Below, piece after piece: positions 14,225 to 62,492 of a DNA stretch of 64,000 bases. The position numbers were made by a program, and so were the translations under genes. Position 1 is the first letter of the stretch; each line of letters starts with the position of its first letter. Source of the stretch: Verrucomicrobiia bacterium (lineage in GTDB: Bacteria; Verrucomicrobiota; Verrucomicrobiia; Limisphaerales; JADLHS01); contig WYBW01000080.1 in NCBI GenBank assembly GCA_011525685.1, positions 1 through 64,000 on the forward strand. Reading direction: 5' to 3'. Below the pieces are notes generated by a model, which was not told where the DNA came from, did not search any database, and was given only the letters and a program-made list of their open reading frames with translations.

Positions 14225-14661
14225 GCCGGGAGTATTCCTCGGGCAAGCAGACGGGCCAAGCGAATTGCGCGGCGGCGCGATGGAGGGTTGGCTTACCAGC
14301 CGCCCACTGGGCCGGTTGGCTCGTAGGCCGCACCTCCGGCAGAAGGGCCGACCCGCAAAGGACCAGGAGGCGCCAGACACGGAAACGACCAGTTACCCCT
14401 CGCCAAAATTCAGTTCATCCTTTCGGGCGCGATTGAAAGTGGCGCTCAATTTGAGTGGTGGCAGTGCTCGCGCAGCGAGCACTCCGCCCGCTCAGAGCGG
14501 CCGGAACGTTGCGGTGATGATTTGCGCCGCTGCGCGCCGCGCTACGGCTCGCAACGCGAGCCGTTCCACCCCACAGACCGCCACTCTCAATCGCAACCCA
14601 ATAGTTCCAATGGTTTGCATTGGCATCGGGACTCTGTCTTAATCGGCGCAATCGAAGCCTG
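14225..14661. other. Intergenic, 437 bases, with one family-E repeat
   Basis: The repeat at 14429-14597 fills the middle. The rest, 14225-14428 and 14598-14661, shows no recognisable feature; the ceramidase gene has no clear Shine-Dalgarno. Confidence 0.5.
14429..14597. repeat. Dispersed palindromic element, family E (copy 1, ~170 bp)
   Basis: Outer arms GCGATTGAAAGTGGCG and CGCCACTCTCAATCGC pair across the element. Inside are GTGCTCGCGCAGCGAGCAC and GCTACGGCTCGCAACGCGAG hairpins. The element at 22061-22229 has the same arms, the same inner order and a CCCACAGACCGCC block, so it is a second copy 7.6 kb away. Confidence 0.78.
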
Positions 14662-18582: not shown

Positions 18583-18921
18583 GGTTGTGGCAAGGTTGAT
18601 GGGTGGAAGGCTGGCAAGGAGGGAGCAAGGGTGCGATGTGGGTAGTCATTTGTTGCCCTTGCCCTCTCCCCAAGGGAGAGGGAACAACGAGTGGCTGTGC
18701 CAAAGTTTGCCGAAGGTCTGCCTGCCGCGACCGACTCACAACCCTCCAAAAGTCGGCGGAGGATTCCCCGTCTCCCGGCGGGAGAGGGCCGGGGTGAGGG
18801 GGTATCGTACAAAGGCACTTCGCCCGTAACCCACGAAGCTCGCGATTCGCATCTATCCTTCATCGCCATCATCACTTCACTCTTCAAGCATTGCGGGGCA
18901 TGGCTGGCAGAATCAAGCCCC
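18583..18921. other. Intergenic, 339 bases, mostly family-B repeat
   Basis: Separates the UroD-like gene from the homocysteine methyltransferase gene. The repeat spans 18650-18807; the rest shows nothing. The gap is long enough that the UroD-like gene may have its own promoter. Confidence 0.5.
18650..18807 (+). repeat. Dispersed palindromic repeat, family B (copy 1)
   Basis: Left hairpin CCCTCTCCCCAAGGGAGAGGG and right block GGCGGGAGAGGGCCGGGGTGAGGG flank a variable spacer. The same pair with different inner bases occurs at 47033-47190 and 49884-50115, and in degraded form inside pabB (61467-61649). Confidence 0.78.
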
Positions 18922-21982: not shown

Positions 21983-22060
21983 GAAGCACCAATATGTTCT
22001 GATGTCCGGACAGCCTGCCAACAGGGGTTGCGGGTCGCAAACACCAAACCACTCAGGGGT

Positions 22061-22229
22061 GCGATTGAAAACGGTGGTCAATCTGGGTGGTGGCAGTGCT
22101 CGCGCCGTGAGCACCCCGCCCGCGCGGTGCGCCCGGACGCGCGGTGAAGGGTTGCGCCGCTCCACGCGGCGCTACGGCGCGCAGCGCGAGCCATTCCATC
22201 CCACAGACCGCCTCTTTCAATCGCAACCA
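22061..22229. repeat. Dispersed palindromic element, family E (copy 2)
   Basis: GCGATTGAAAACGGTGG at the left and CGCCTCTTTCAATCGC at the right are the outer arms. GTGCTCGCGCCGTGAGCAC and the TCCACGCGGCGCTACGGCGC block are inner stems. Same order as 14429-14597. It lies tightly between the xseA start and the stop of the 2621-aa gene (22234). Confidence 0.78.
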
Positions 22230-30362: not shown

Positions 30363-30556
30363 TTCTGAATGCATAACCCGACCTCCAACACTGTCCGGCA
30401 AAGTCCTTTGTTCACATCGTCCCGTTCACATTTTGTAACACCCGCGTGACAACCTACACGATTCCTGCCGCGTTGGCTCGCAAAAAGTTAGCCAAAACCG
30501 TGCCCGAAAAAAATCGAATGGCGGACCTCACTTCCATCCGTGGCGCAGGGCATGGC

Positions 30557-30678
30557 ATGGTGGAACTCGTCGCACCGCGACGAGTAGCGCCGCGTTCAGC
30601 GGAGCAAGGGCGCACATCCGTGAGCCAGTTCCGTCCGCCGGACGCGGACGGGGTGGTCGCAGCGCGATCCCCACTACC
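30557..30678 (+). repeat. Dispersed palindromic repeat, family A (copy 3)
   Basis: TGGTGGAACTCGTCGCACCG, CCGCGTTCAGCGGAGCAAGG and TCCGCCGGACGCGGACGGGG follow one another and the end is GTGGTCGCAGCGCGATCC, the same order as the copy at 206 and in reverse at 1469. Confidence 0.75.
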
Positions 30679-30680
30679 TG

Positions 30681-30722
30681 CCAGCAACTGAGATGCGATC
30701 TGGTTGCTGGGTTGCTTTTTTC
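30681..30722 (+). terminator. Terminator-like hairpin with T-run
   Basis: CCAGCAAC (30681-30688) pairs perfectly with GTTGCTGG (30703-30710); an overlapping AGCAAC/GTTGCT pairing is directly followed by seven T. It may insulate the promoter of the downstream PA14 gene from leftward or incoming transcription. Confidence 0.45.
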
Positions 30723-40923: not shown

Positions 40924-41077
40924 GTTGTCTGCACTCTGCCAGTCCGGCGCGGGGACGGGACACTCCCTGGTCCGCTGGTTGCTCCCGCGCGGACGCAATG
41001 GTGTGCCAAGACTGGCCCTCCAAAGACAGCTTTTTCTTTTGCGTTCTCAGGCCGTGGGGGCGTCCCAGTTCCATGCC

Positions 41078-41195
41078 GGTGGGGGTGGTCGCGCTGCGAC
41101 CACCGCGTGCGCGTTCAGCGGACGGCCGTGCGGAGGGCCACTCGTTGCGCCGCTTTACTCGGCGCTACGGCTCGCAGCGCGAGCCGTTCCACCAA
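41078..41195 (-). repeat. Dispersed palindromic repeat, family A/E (copy 4)
   Basis: GGTGGTCGCGCTGCGACCACC and GCTACGGCTCGCAGCGCGAG hairpins bracket an inner block GCGTTCAGCGGAC. It combines blocks seen at 1469 and 14429. It lies between hisG and the GDPD gene. Confidence 0.65.
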
Positions 41196-46959: not shown

Positions 46960-47032
46960 AGTCCTCTTCGACCTTGCCTGATGGTTGTCCGAGGATGCAA
47001 GGCACAACTCGGGGCAAGGTTATTGGACCGAT

Positions 47033-47190
47033 CTCCCTCACCCTTACCCTCTCCCGCTGGGAGAGGGAACAGCACTCGCACGTTTCAACTCTGGCGGACG
47101 AGCGTTCAATGGATTCCGTGTTCCGATGGTCGAGAGGTCGGAGAACCATTCTCCCTCTCCCAGCGGGAGAGGGCCGGGGTGAGGGCGAAC
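47033..47190. repeat. Dispersed palindromic repeat, family B (copy 2)
   Basis: CCCTCTCCCGCTGGGAGAGGG on the left and CCCAGCGGGAGAGGGCCGGG on the right. It occupies most of the 283-base gap between the GH78 start and the FucI-like stop. Confidence 0.8.
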
Positions 47191-49883: not shown

Positions 49884-50115
49884 TTCTCCCTCACCCTTGA
49901 TCCCTCTCCCGCTGGGAGAGGTAGATAGCAGCCGTTCGCTCAATCTTATCCGACCACCTTCCGGCATTTTCGGTCGCACCATCTTTCGCGAAACCGGCGG
50001 AAGACTCTCCCTCTCCCAATGCCGGGTCTTCGCCTCAGGCTTCGACGCGGCTGACTGGGTCGCGCCATAGCGCAGCGAAGTTGGACGGACGTGGGCCAGA
50101 GTGAGGGAGAGTCGT
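49884..50115. repeat. Dispersed palindromic repeat, family B (copy 3, extended)
   Basis: CCCTCTCCCGCTGGGAGAGG on the left; on the right CTCCCTCTCCCAATGCCGGG and GTGGGCCAGAGTGAGGGAGA, with about 80 additional bases compared to the copies at 18650 and 47033. Confidence 0.65.
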
Positions 50116-56110: not shown

Positions 56111-56155
56111 ACCGCACGAATCGTGTATGCAATCAAACTCACCTTCACACCAATT

Positions 56156-58567
56156 ATGAAAACGAAACACAGTCTGATCCGCCGGCATTGTCAAGGCTGG
56201 GCGTGTGCAACAGTGGCGCAGGTTTCCAACCTGCCGTATCGCCGAATTCCATTCGGCAGGATCCTCCAAACGTTCTCACCGCTTCGTCAATTCAGCGGGT
56301 TGGAAACCCGCGATGCAGCAGACTGGAAGTCTGCGCTACGCCGGTGGACCTGGTCTGCTTATCGGTTAGGCGGGCTCAGGTGCGGTGTGGCGCTGGCTGC
56401 AGCGTTGGCCTTCACCTTTACCACACTGGCGCAACCACAACCCAATCAGCGTCCGGGCGACGGCGGTTTTCCGCCGGGCCGCGGGCCTGGGTTCGATGGG
56501 CCGCCGCCGTTTGGTCCGGGCGGAGGCTTCGGCCCCGGCGGACCGGGTGGTCCGGGCGGCATGTTTCAGGAGATCAAACTGGTCAAGCAGTTCGACAAAG
56601 ATGGTGACAAGCGGCTGAACAACGAAGAGCGGAAGGCAGCGCGGGAATATCTGTCCAAGGAGCGCGCGAATCGCGGTCCGGGCGGTCCGGGCGGCCGGCG
56701 GGGTGGATTTGGTCCGCGCGGCGAGAACCAAGAACCGGCGCAGCCAGGACAGAAACTTTCGCCAGCGGACGTGCGGTCGTTTCCCGATGCGCCCGCGTAC
56801 GACATGAAGACGCTGCGGACGTTCTTCCTCGAGTTCGAGAACGAAGATTGGGAGAAGGAGCTGGCCGATTTCAACAACACGGACGTGGAGGTGCCCGCCA
56901 AACTCACCGTGGACGGAAAGGTTTATCAGGATGTGGGCGTGCATTTTCGCGGCGCTTCGTCGTTGATGATGGTGCCGGAGGGGCGCAAGCGTTCGCTGAA
57001 TCTGTCCCTGGATTGGGTTCACGAGAAACAGAACCTGGGCGGCTACCGCACATTCAACCTGCTGAATTCGCACGGCGACCCGACGATGCTGCGGGCGGTG
57101 TTGTCGCACCACATTTCCCGCGAATACATTCCCGCGCCCAAGGCGAACTTCGTGCGCGTGGTCATCAATGGCGAGGATTGGGGCGTGTATCCCAGCGTGC
57201 AGCAGTTCAACAAGGATTTCATCAACGACTGGTTCGGCACGACGAAGGGCGCGCGGTGGAAAGTGCCCGGCAGTCCGCAAGGCCGCGCCGGCCTCGAGTA
57301 TCTCGGCGATGATCCCGCGCCGTACAAGCGGCTTTACGAAATCAAAACCAAAGACGATCCCGAAGTCTGGGCGGACCTCATCAAGCTCTGCAAGGTGTTG
57401 AATCAAACGCCGCCGGACCAGTTGGAGAAGGCGCTCGAACCGTTGCTCAACATAGACGGCGCGTTGAAGTTTCTCGCGCTCGAAAATGTGCTGGTGAACA
57501 ACGATGGCTACTGGGTGCGGGCGAGCGACTACAGCCTTTACCAGGACACCAAGGGGCGCTTCCACCTTTTCCCGCATGACGCGAATGAGACGTTCAGTGT
57601 CGGCGGCGGTCCCGGCGGACCGGGCGGACCGGGTGGTCCGGGTGGATTTGGCGGTCCCGGCGGTGGCTTCGGCCCGGAGATGATCGTGACCCAGCAGATG
57701 CTGGAGCAGGGGGACCAGAACGATGATCGCAGGCTGACGAAATCCGAGTTCGGCGCGCTGGCGGAGACGTGGTTCGACAAACTGGACCCGGACAGGACCG
57801 GCAAGGTTTCGCAGGAGCAGTTTATCGCGAGGTTCGAGGAATTGCTGCCGCCACCCCAAGGTTTCGGCCCGCCCGGCGGTGGACCGCAAGGCGGCCAAAG
57901 ACCCGGCGGCGGTCGCGGTGGCTTCGGGCCGGCGATGGTTCTCGGACCGGCATTGTTTGGCGCGACGGACACGGACAAGGATGGTTCGCTCACGCGCACG
58001 GAATTTAAGGACACGTTCGCGAAGTGGTTCAGCGATTGGGACAGGGGCAAACGCGGTGCGTTGAACGAGGACAATCTGCGAGCGGGACTGGCTGGCGTGT
58101 TGCCTCAGCCGAACTTTGCCGGTCCGGGCGGTCCGGGTGGTCCAGGCGGTGGGCGCGGACGCGGCGGCCCGGGTGGTAGTGGGCCGGGCGGCGGTGGCGG
58201 GGTGCAACTCGATCCGTTGGTGGCGGCTAATGATTCGAGCAAGCCCTTGCTTTCAAAATTGCTGGCCGTGCCCGCGTTGCGCATGCGTTACCTCGGCTAC
58301 GTGCGCGAGATTGCCCAGACGTGGCTCGACTGGAACAAGCTCGGCCCGCTGGCGAAGGAGTATCAATCGGTAATTGCCGACGTGGTGAAAGTGGACACGC
58401 GGAAACTGGATTCCACAGAAGCCTTCTTTGCGGGATTGGACGGCGCGCCGCAGACTCAGGGCGGGTTCGGTCCGGGTCGGGGGCCGCGCGGCAGTTTGAA
58501 ATCCTTTGCCGAGCAACGACGGGAGTTTCTGCTCAATCACCCCGAGGTGAAGAAGGCAGGGAAATAA
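56156..58567 (+). CDS. Secreted CotH-like protein with EF-hands and repeat-encoded N-terminal insert
   Basis: An 803-aa exported protein. Residues 1-19 give a basic n-region (KTKHSLIRR), residues 20-63 are a family-C palindromic repeat in frame (peptide QVSNLPYRR... GLETRDAADWKSALR), and the hydrophobic signal core lies at 77-92. Then come Gly/Pro-rich linkers, an EF-hand loop DKDGDKRLNNEE (about 143), the CotH domain (about 220-480; VHFRGASS, SLNLSLDW, LNSHGDPTMLR, GVYPSVQQFNKDF, FHLFPHDANETF), and further EF-type loops DQNDDRRL, DPDRTGKV and DTDKDGSL (520-615). Third gene of the VTC/DUF4956 cassette; kinase activity is likely but not proven. Confidence 0.88.
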   Translation: MKTKHSLIRRHCQGWACATVAQVSNLPYRRIPFGRILQTFSPLRQFSGLETRDAADWKSALRRWTWSAYRLGGLRCGVALAAALAFTFTTLAQPQPNQRPGDGGFPPGRGPGFDGPPPFGPGGGFGPGGPGGPGGMFQEIKLVKQFDKDGDKRLNNEERKAAREYLSKERANRGPGGPGGRRGGFGPRGENQEPAQPGQKLSPADVRSFPDAPAYDMKTLRTFFLEFENEDWEKELADFNNTDVEVPAKLTVDGKVYQDVGVHFRGASSLMMVPEGRKRSLNLSLDWVHEKQNLGGYRTFNLLNSHGDPTMLRAVLSHHISREYIPAPKANFVRVVINGEDWGVYPSVQQFNKDFINDWFGTTKGARWKVPGSPQGRAGLEYLGDDPAPYKRLYEIKTKDDPEVWADLIKLCKVLNQTPPDQLEKALEPLLNIDGALKFLALENVLVNNDGYWVRASDYSLYQDTKGRFHLFPHDANETFSVGGGPGGPGGPGGPGGFGGPGGGFGPEMIVTQQMLEQGDQNDDRRLTKSEFGALAETWFDKLDPDRTGKVSQEQFIARFEELLPPPQGFGPPGGGPQGGQRPGGGRGGFGPAMVLGPALFGATDTDKDGSLTRTEFKDTFAKWFSDWDRGKRGALNEDNLRAGLAGVLPQPNFAGPGGPGGPGGGRGRGGPGGSGPGGGGGVQLDPLVAANDSSKPLLSKLLAVPALRMRYLGYVREIAQTWLDWNKLGPLAKEYQSVIADVVKVDTRKLDSTEAFFAGLDGAPQTQGGFGPGRGPRGSLKSFAEQRREFLLNHPEVKKAGK
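56213..56344 (+). repeat. Family-C palindromic repeat inside the CotH signal-peptide region
   Basis: CAGGTTTCCAACCTG and GCGGGTTGGAAACCCGC hairpins are followed by GCAGACTGGAAGTCTGC. It sits in frame between the basic start and the hydrophobic core of the signal peptide. The related copy at 30230-30362 is intergenic. Confidence 0.8.
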
Positions 58568-60917: not shown

Positions 60918-62492
60918 ATGCGGCCGATCGTCCAGGAATGTTCGACGGCTCACACGCCGGAATCGCTGGTGGAGGAATTGCGCGCTCAACCCGGCGCGGC
61001 CCTGCTGCGCAGCGCATTGTTCGAATCGCCGCAGGCTCGTTACTCATTCGTGGCAACCAGCCCGTTCCTCACCTTCCGCTCGTGGGGATCGCGATGTGAA
61101 ATCGCAACGCACTCCTCACCCACCACGCCCTGCATTCAGTTCGGCAACCCCTGGCATCTGCTCGACAGCCTGATGTCCCGCTACGAATTGCTCGACGAGA
61201 TTGATTTTCCCTTCCCGCTCGGCGGCTGTTTCGGTTACTGGGGCTATGACTTGAAGAACTTCGTCGAGCCGAAGCTCCCGCGTCACGCCGCAAACGATCT
61301 TGAACTGCCGGATTGCCATGTCGGTCTCTACGACAGCCTCGTGGTGTTCGATCATCGCCTGGGAAGAACGTGTGTGGTTTCGACCGGGTTGAGCGCGGAT
61401 GGTTCGCGCAGCGAGAAGCGGGCTAAAGAAACAGCCGAGGTCTGGCAGCAGCGGCTGGCCGGTGCAGCAAAACCCTCCCTCGCCCCGGCCTGCTTACATC
61501 CGATGGTAGAAGGAGAATCGCCGGAAGCACGATTGGAAATGAGAAGCGCGTACGCTGCCGATGGATTGATGGACATCAGGAAAGGCGCCGACGGCAGTTC
61601 CTCTCTCCCATCCGATGCGAGACGGGTCAGGGGTGAGGGTCTGGTATTTTCCAACCGCACACGCACGGAATTCCTTACGGCCGTTGCTCGCGCGCAGCGT
61701 TACATCCACGCCGGCGACATTTACCAGGTGAACCTGTCGCACCGGCTCGCCGCAAGCTGCAGCCTCTCCGGCTGGGAGTTGTTCGAGCGACTCCTGACCG
61801 TCTCGCCCGCGCCGTTCGCGGCGTATTTCGATTGTGGCGATTTCCAACTCGCCTCTTCGTCGCCCGAACAGTTTCTCCGTTTGAGCGGGCCGCACATCGC
61901 CACGCGCCCCATCAAGGGCACCCGCCCACGGTCAACGGATGCGACGCGCGATGCCCAACTCGCCTATGAACTGCAAACCAGCCCCAAGGAACTGGCCGAA
62001 CTGGTGATGATCACGGACCTGCTGCGCAACGATCTTGGCAGGGTCTGCGAATACGGTTCGGTTCAAGTCCCGGAATTGGCGAAGCTCGAGCGGTTTCCGC
62101 AAGTGCAGCATCTCGTTTCAACGGTCGAGGGCCGGCTGCGTTCCGGGGTGACGCATTTCGCGGCGCTGGCAGCGTGCTTTCCCGGCGGCAGCATTACAGG
62201 TGCGCCCAAGTTCCGGGCGATGGAGATTATTGACGAACTGGAGCCGTTGGCGCGCGGGCCGTATTGCGGCTGCCACGGTTATCTCGGGTTCAATCGTGAA
62301 AGCCAGTTGAGCATCAGCATTCGCACCGCGATTCGCAAAGCGGACACGGCCTATTTCCACGTCGGCGCGGGCATCGTGGCCGATTCGGAGCCGGAGGCGG
62401 AATACGAGGAGACGCTTGCCAAGGCGGGCGGATTTCTGAGTGCACTCAAATTGTCATGGCGAGCGGAGCAGCGGATGGAGACAGCGGATTAG
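60918..62492 (+). CDS. pabB: Aminodeoxychorismate synthase component I, with repeat-encoded insert
   Basis: A 524-aa enzyme that converts chorismate to 4-amino-4-deoxychorismate for folate synthesis. The N-terminal domain has PFPLGGCFGYWGYDLKNF; the chorismate-binding domain (about 250-515) has IHAGDIYQVNLSHRL, RPIKGTRPR (Lys333 of the PIKGT motif, as in PabB and not PIAGT of TrpE), PGGSITGAPKFRAMEIIDELE and the ending YFHVGAGIVADSEPEAEYEET. Residues 184-244 (about 61467-61649) are an extra segment with degraded family-B repeat DNA, in frame. No pabA-like gene is visible. Confidence 0.92.
   Translation: MRPIVQECSTAHTPESLVEELRAQPGAALLRSALFESPQARYSFVATSPFLTFRSWGSRCEIATHSSPTTPCIQFGNPWHLLDSLMSRYELLDEIDFPFPLGGCFGYWGYDLKNFVEPKLPRHAANDLELPDCHVGLYDSLVVFDHRLGRTCVVSTGLSADGSRSEKRAKETAEVWQQRLAGAAKPSLAPACLHPMVEGESPEARLEMRSAYAADGLMDIRKGADGSSSLPSDARRVRGEGLVFSNRTRTEFLTAVARAQRYIHAGDIYQVNLSHRLAASCSLSGWELFERLLTVSPAPFAAYFDCGDFQLASSSPEQFLRLSGPHIATRPIKGTRPRSTDATRDAQLAYELQTSPKELAELVMITDLLRNDLGRVCEYGSVQVPELAKLERFPQVQHLVSTVEGRLRSGVTHFAALAACFPGGSITGAPKFRAMEIIDELEPLARGPYCGCHGYLGFNRESQLSISIRTAIRKADTAYFHVGAGIVADSEPEAEYEETLAKAGGFLSALKLSWRAEQRMETAD
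61467..61649. repeat. Degenerate family-B repeat inside pabB
   Basis: CCTCCCTCGCCCCGGCCTGC with ACATCCGATGG at the left and CTCTCTCCCATCCGATGCGA with GGGTCAGGGGTGAGGGTC at the right are weak copies of the arms seen intact at 18650 and 47033. It encodes about 61 residues without a stop. Confidence 0.65.

Follow-up and report, generated by a model that had tools for sequence, protein, structure and literature searches.

In-frame, translated palindromes are known classically from the Rickettsia palindromic elements (RPEs; Ogata et al. 2000, 2002), which, according to two later papers (PMC10969869, PMC3733652), are non-autonomous palindromic elements of ~150 bp that lie in frame in unrelated metabolic genes and are translated. 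Intragenic GTAG/CGTC REPs occur in many genomes, most numerously in the verrucomicrobium Opitutus terrae, and the recB genes of two Xanthomonas species were noted to carry different REPs at roughly the same point (Di Nocera et al. 2013; PMC3733652). REPINs are REP doublets moved by RAYT, with two inverted hairpin arms around a spacer and no target duplication seen (PMC8049555), and MITEs can create protein fusions (reviewed in PMC10969869).

We analysed a 64,000-nucleotide stretch of verrucomicrobial DNA (the window) in which a dispersed palindromic repeat, family B, recurs inside the gene for PabB. In size, palindromic structure, non-autonomy and in-frame location in unrelated genes, family B resembles the RPEs as those papers describe them; the frame predicted to run open through the palindrome of a conserved gene is a likeness of behaviour, not of sequence. 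It differs in that it comes from another phylum, in that most copies examined lie outside recognisable genes, and in that, at PabB, several unrelated families occur in a single linker. With the GTAG/CGTC REPs it shares palindromes, often paired and inverted, within ORFs of known proteins, and with REPINs the two inverted arms around a spacer. Unlike either, it carries no tag at the hairpin foot, as neither GTAG nor CGTC appears there in the consensus, and its unit of ~157 bp further sets it apart from the GTAG/CGTC REPs. No RAYT gene was found beside it, with no copy in the 2.1-3.3 kb around any of eight Y1_Tnp loci. RAYT/Y1 linkage was therefore rejected as the mobiliser, although a distant or lost RAYT could still have acted. 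Unlike MITEs, family B shows no target-site duplication, since flanking k-mers of 26 copies were shared no more than scattered chance. Because the tag, the RAYT linkage and the duplication are all missing, we consider that family B works like these systems and do not assign it to any of them. No earlier description of the element was found in the literature searched. In-frame palindromes are thus already known as a kind of event, and what this locus adds is the recurrence, unusually clear at a single PabB site, of unrelated elements in one orthologous linker, together with a second gene that follows the same pattern.

Structure and reading phases of family B

The family-B profile spans 157 bp, with a variable spacer flanked by two ~45-nt arms that are inverted relative to each other. 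Each arm combines a hairpin, CCCTCTCCC-loop-GGGAGAGGG, with an outer segment, CCCTCACCC / GGGTGAGGG. Terminal inverted repeats, a MITE trait, are present, with 37 nt at 89% between the arms of the copy at 47 kb. Counted with a 3-base loop, the arm pattern has ~130 matches in the genome vs none for the reversed pattern, and a BLAST search with one copy returned 119 matches in the same genome. Rfam gave no match at the gathering score between 46900 and 64000 of the window. The open reading frame context was determined for 39 copies, from 20 genome stretches and the window; the long frames of four loci (L039, L044, L053 and L054) were not counted as in-gene, as the element lies at or before the N-terminus.

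The phase that reads LTPALS...GEGRGEG is the one used by the PabB inserts and by the insert in a P-type ATPase described below. In this phase the left arm is never closed (45 of 45 oriented copies) and the whole element is open in 20 of 45. A second phase is open in 17 of the 45 and the third in only 7, because the outer arm contains TGA. Given a suitable net length, read-through is therefore possible for many copies.

Table 1. Features of the window: pabB, the family-B element within it and further family-B copies
Feature	Position	Strand	Basis
pabB, aminodeoxychorismate synthase component I	60918..62492	+	ORF, 524 aa, intact
Decayed full-length family-B element, in frame as PabB residues ~186-241	61474..61640	-	HMM 35.1 bits, E=2.2e-10
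Left arm, gene orientation: outer CCCTCGCCCC and decayed hairpin, loop CATCCGATG at 61497-61505	61474..61520	-	sequence, HMM alignment
Right arm, gene orientation: CTCTCTCCCATCCGATG...GGGGTGAGGG, loop CATCCGATG at 61609-61617	61592..61640	-	sequence, HMM alignment
Family-B copy	18653..18803	+	HMM 98.6 bits
Family-B copy, intact	47031..47190	+	repeat search; HMM 129 bits
Family-B copy without right end	49885..50026	+	HMM 54.1 bits, model 1-131

The family-B copy within PabB

The original prediction placed a degraded family-B repeat between the two domains of an otherwise intact PabB. Both domains were recovered by domain search, Anth_synt_I_N (PF04715) at residues 12-148 and Chorismate_bind (PF00425) at residues 249-502, and the PIKGT motif is present and invariant across 50 aligned relatives, which bears out the intactness of the catalytic blocks. 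The closest solved structure is that of E. coli PabB (1k0e). The protein scores 325.7 bits against TIGR00553, slightly under the cut-off of 328.4; against the TrpE model TIGR00564 it reaches 395 vs a cut-off of 518, a larger shortfall. No second pabB was found in the genome, which is 97.8% complete, and the remaining match is a more distant TrpE-like paralogue.

We probed the linker with a family-B HMM trained on 26 other long copies from the same genome, the PabB copy being excluded. The collection was seeded by the intact copy at 47 kb (Table 1) and so was defined independently of pabB. In the 64-kb window the model matched the minus strand of the pabB linker at 61639-61475 (envelope 61640-61474); the match scored 35.1 bits (E=2.2e-10) and covered model positions 4-156 of 157. 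The highest score among 1000 dinucleotide-shuffled pabB genes was 7.1 bits, and the reversed window gave 6.0 bits. Of the two arms, the left one persists as CCCTCGCCCCGGCC...CATCCGATGG...GGAGAATCG and the right one as CTCTCTCCCATCCGATG...GGGTCAGGGGTGAGGG, so that the degraded repeat and its still recognisable arms are both upheld. The predicted extent of 61467-61649 was right in location and needs correction in detail, as the element itself is slightly shorter, lies in minus orientation and accounts for ~55 residues (186-241). The predicted insert of 61 residues holds as a net length, since 93 residues stand here between aligned positions that are separated by 33 in E. coli PabB (1k0e), a net gain of 60.

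Overall identity to the consensus is 0.76, inside the range of the other copies. The arms reach only 0.76 and 0.78 vs mostly 0.84-0.98 elsewhere, so the decay sits in the arms. The description of this copy as ancient rests on this arm divergence and on the relatives, not on a clock. Intact copies with the CATCCGATG loop occur elsewhere in the same genome (L268-L270), which makes this loop a subfamily marker and not by itself proof of common descent. At the level of the DNA and the predicted protein, these results show a full-length, in-frame family-B copy in a PabB whose catalytic part is intact. The element lies wholly between the two domains and, as neither is touched, the enzyme should still work.

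The linker in relatives and a second gene

PabB is encoded in all 11 other genomes examined from the same GTDB family. Measured from a conserved W to a conserved S, the linker is 70 aa long here; across the group (144 PabB genes) its length ranges from 24 to 99 aa, with a median of 31.5. No column at residues 177-244 is invariant in an alignment of 50 PabBs, and both flanks are rich in invariant columns. AlphaFold2, run on the same alignment, gave a mean pLDDT of 72.9 with values below 50 at residues 189-198 and 208-241, and in this model the low-confidence stretches coincide with the limits of the element. The linker thus varies in presence, length and sequence and is predicted to be disordered, and relatives free of the repeat have a short, unrelated linker and not the conserved one that would have spoken against the prediction.

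Family B was detected in the linker of 12 of the 144 PabBs at E<0.01, this one included, as full elements or single hairpins in the other 11; the only match outside the linker was a weak one (L193, E=0.0038). In seven cases (G000, which is this genome, G001, G004, G005, G006, G008 and L165) the distance from the conserved W to the start of the element is 11 residues, and in the rest (G010, L167, G013, G041 and G095) it is 7, 10, 22 or 25. Well-formed copies at the 11-residue offset are found in G001, G004, G005, G008 and L165. The left arm in G001, from the same family and another genus, shares the CATCCGATG loop and the GGAGAATCG edge with the decayed copy. The well-formed state of the G001 copy, at an identical linker offset and with that left-arm loop, fits the proposal that the insertion was tolerated long enough to decay; the time scale is reached only indirectly, because the PabB copy may already have been degenerate on insertion or the site may since have been occupied anew.

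Other elements occupy the same linker. In G011, from the same genus, the repeat found there is a different dispersed one, which matches 15 further places in that genome at 77-89% identity. The 121-bp element in the G009 linker (L016) is a plain MITE, bounded by terminal inverted repeats (GAGACTGTCTCAAAA) and accompanied by the 5-bp target duplication ACTCC; element and duplication add up to 126 bp and hence stay in frame. Removal of the MITE and one duplication leaves flanks that form a palindrome with a 24-bp stem, which implies that the MITE is nested in an older element. G028 has yet another palindrome, with arms that recur in its genome. The view that the repeat had become ordinary protein sequence is therefore an understatement, as several repeat families, unrelated to each other, have repeatedly landed in this linker. 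At this one orthologous site, insertions of a single kind form a series from fresh to decayed, among them a transposition that is nested and has a target duplication, and this series allows one to measure how mobile palindromes turn into ordinary protein linker. By extension, debris of mobile elements may account for much of the variation among linkers in repeat-rich phyla, and repeat-derived linkers can mislead domain and gene annotation.

A loop in the N-terminal domain of PabB carries palindromes of other families in G006, G010, G009, G110 and G081 (L017, L019, L016, L089 and L090). The stems of those in G006 and G010 start with GTAG, as in the REPs that Di Nocera et al. described.

The second gene encodes a heavy-metal P-type ATPase of 1026 aa (L038:2346-5423, minus strand, contig C140), in which one of the family-B copies examined, near-intact, lies in frame (106 bits), ~17 residues after DKTGTLT. 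Among relatives, family B occupies this site in G002, G006 and G010, and a different insert does so in G008; the site is empty in G004, G005 and the same-genus relative G011. G002 and G006, from different genera, have inserts with similar centres (L242 and L243, KRWTEDISEITS / KRWTDDISEITS after DKTGTLT), and this likeness may be either inherited or constrained.

Origin of the insert and other repeats

The best explanation of the PabB segment, which we hold with high confidence, is that a copy of family B was inserted in frame into the interdomain linker and decayed there. A non-coding palindromic element of ~157 bp would have entered what is probably an unconstrained surface loop, where an insertion could survive whenever the net change in length left the frame unshifted and either of the two commonly readable phases was open. 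The extra residues would stay disordered and the hairpins, being free of selection, would let the copy drift like ordinary linker sequence. Insertion, survival in a tolerant loop and drift make up the likeliest course; the decayed in-frame copy at its end is observed, and we infer the initial insertion and the drift. Nothing suggests active targeting of the linker.

A chance resemblance, in which an ordinary linker happens to look like the repeat, might be entertained since this linker is GC-rich and weakly constrained, but it is extremely improbable. The end-to-end match at E=2e-10 and the gap between the real and the shuffled scores speak against it, as do the clear, full family-B elements at the same place in relatives, and on the shuffles and the relatives we regard it as ruled out. 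It is also very improbable, if somewhat less so, that the insert has been co-opted and serves a function, for example in contacting another protein or, as an mRNA hairpin, in setting the pace of translation between the two domains. Long palindromic inserts do persist in pabB of many species, and the similar centre of the ATPase insert in two genera could be read in this way. However, presence, length, family and sequence of the insert vary freely, a sister genome does not have it, the arms have decayed in this genome and the linker is without a conserved column.

How many insertions took place is a more balanced question. A single insertion in the ancestor of the GTDB family, inherited and then decayed here and shrunk to one hairpin, lost or overwritten elsewhere, is a serious contender that we place a little short of an even chance. 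The identical 5' offset in seven PabBs argues for it, as do the left-arm loop and edge shared by G000 and G001 and the CCCTCGCCCCGG that G011 retains at that offset, next to its own, different element. However, the loop is a subfamily trait, the spacers of G000 and G001 are not alignable by eye, and the element starts at other offsets in five PabBs. Furthermore, the hairpins of G001, G005 and G008 are near-perfect despite a 17-18% protein difference from G000 outside the linker, so that a single ancestral insertion would need refreshing by recombination. Repeated, independent insertions, in which the linker is among the few harmless places where elements of several families land and survive, have about an even chance of being correct. 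At least four unrelated elements are found in the linker (family B, the G011 repeat, the G009 MITE and the G028 palindrome), parsimony requires at least 10 changes of family-B state on the PabB tree, and the sister genomes G008 and G003 differ, the former with the element and the latter without. The count of changes is soft, however, because the resolution of the tree is poor, with 33 of its 68 inner branches open, and one exact offset in seven genomes is not expected unless insertion is site-specific or the element inherited. More tentatively, and with some doubt, a few loops (the PabB interdomain linker, the PabB N-domain loop and the P-type ATPase site after DKTGTLT) may be standing in-frame landing pads in Limisphaerales-type Verrucomicrobiota, into which unrelated palindromes repeatedly insert, replacing or nesting in older ones. 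If so, these protein segments would be continually rewritten by mobile DNA.

Several other repeats were noted. A composite repeat starting with GTTCTTCGCTGTTTTC, present as nearly identical, recent copies with family-B-type arms, lies at many contig ends (L256-L267; contigs C10, C18, C153, C161, C4, C82, C39, C175, C191 and C121, and also C47 and C84), a location from which we conclude that it probably breaks the assembly. At L266:1-1121, a fragment that by eye resembles an integron-type tyrosine recombinase adjoins a four-helix-bundle-like ORF. Within the window, another dispersed palindromic family, around GCGCTACGGCTCGCAGCGCGAGCC, has direct and inverted copies at 1450-1632, 14425-14598, 22057-22228, 30552-30697 and 41060-41193, and the ORF at 56123-58567 carries long glycine-proline-rich GGPGGP repeats between better-formed stretches.
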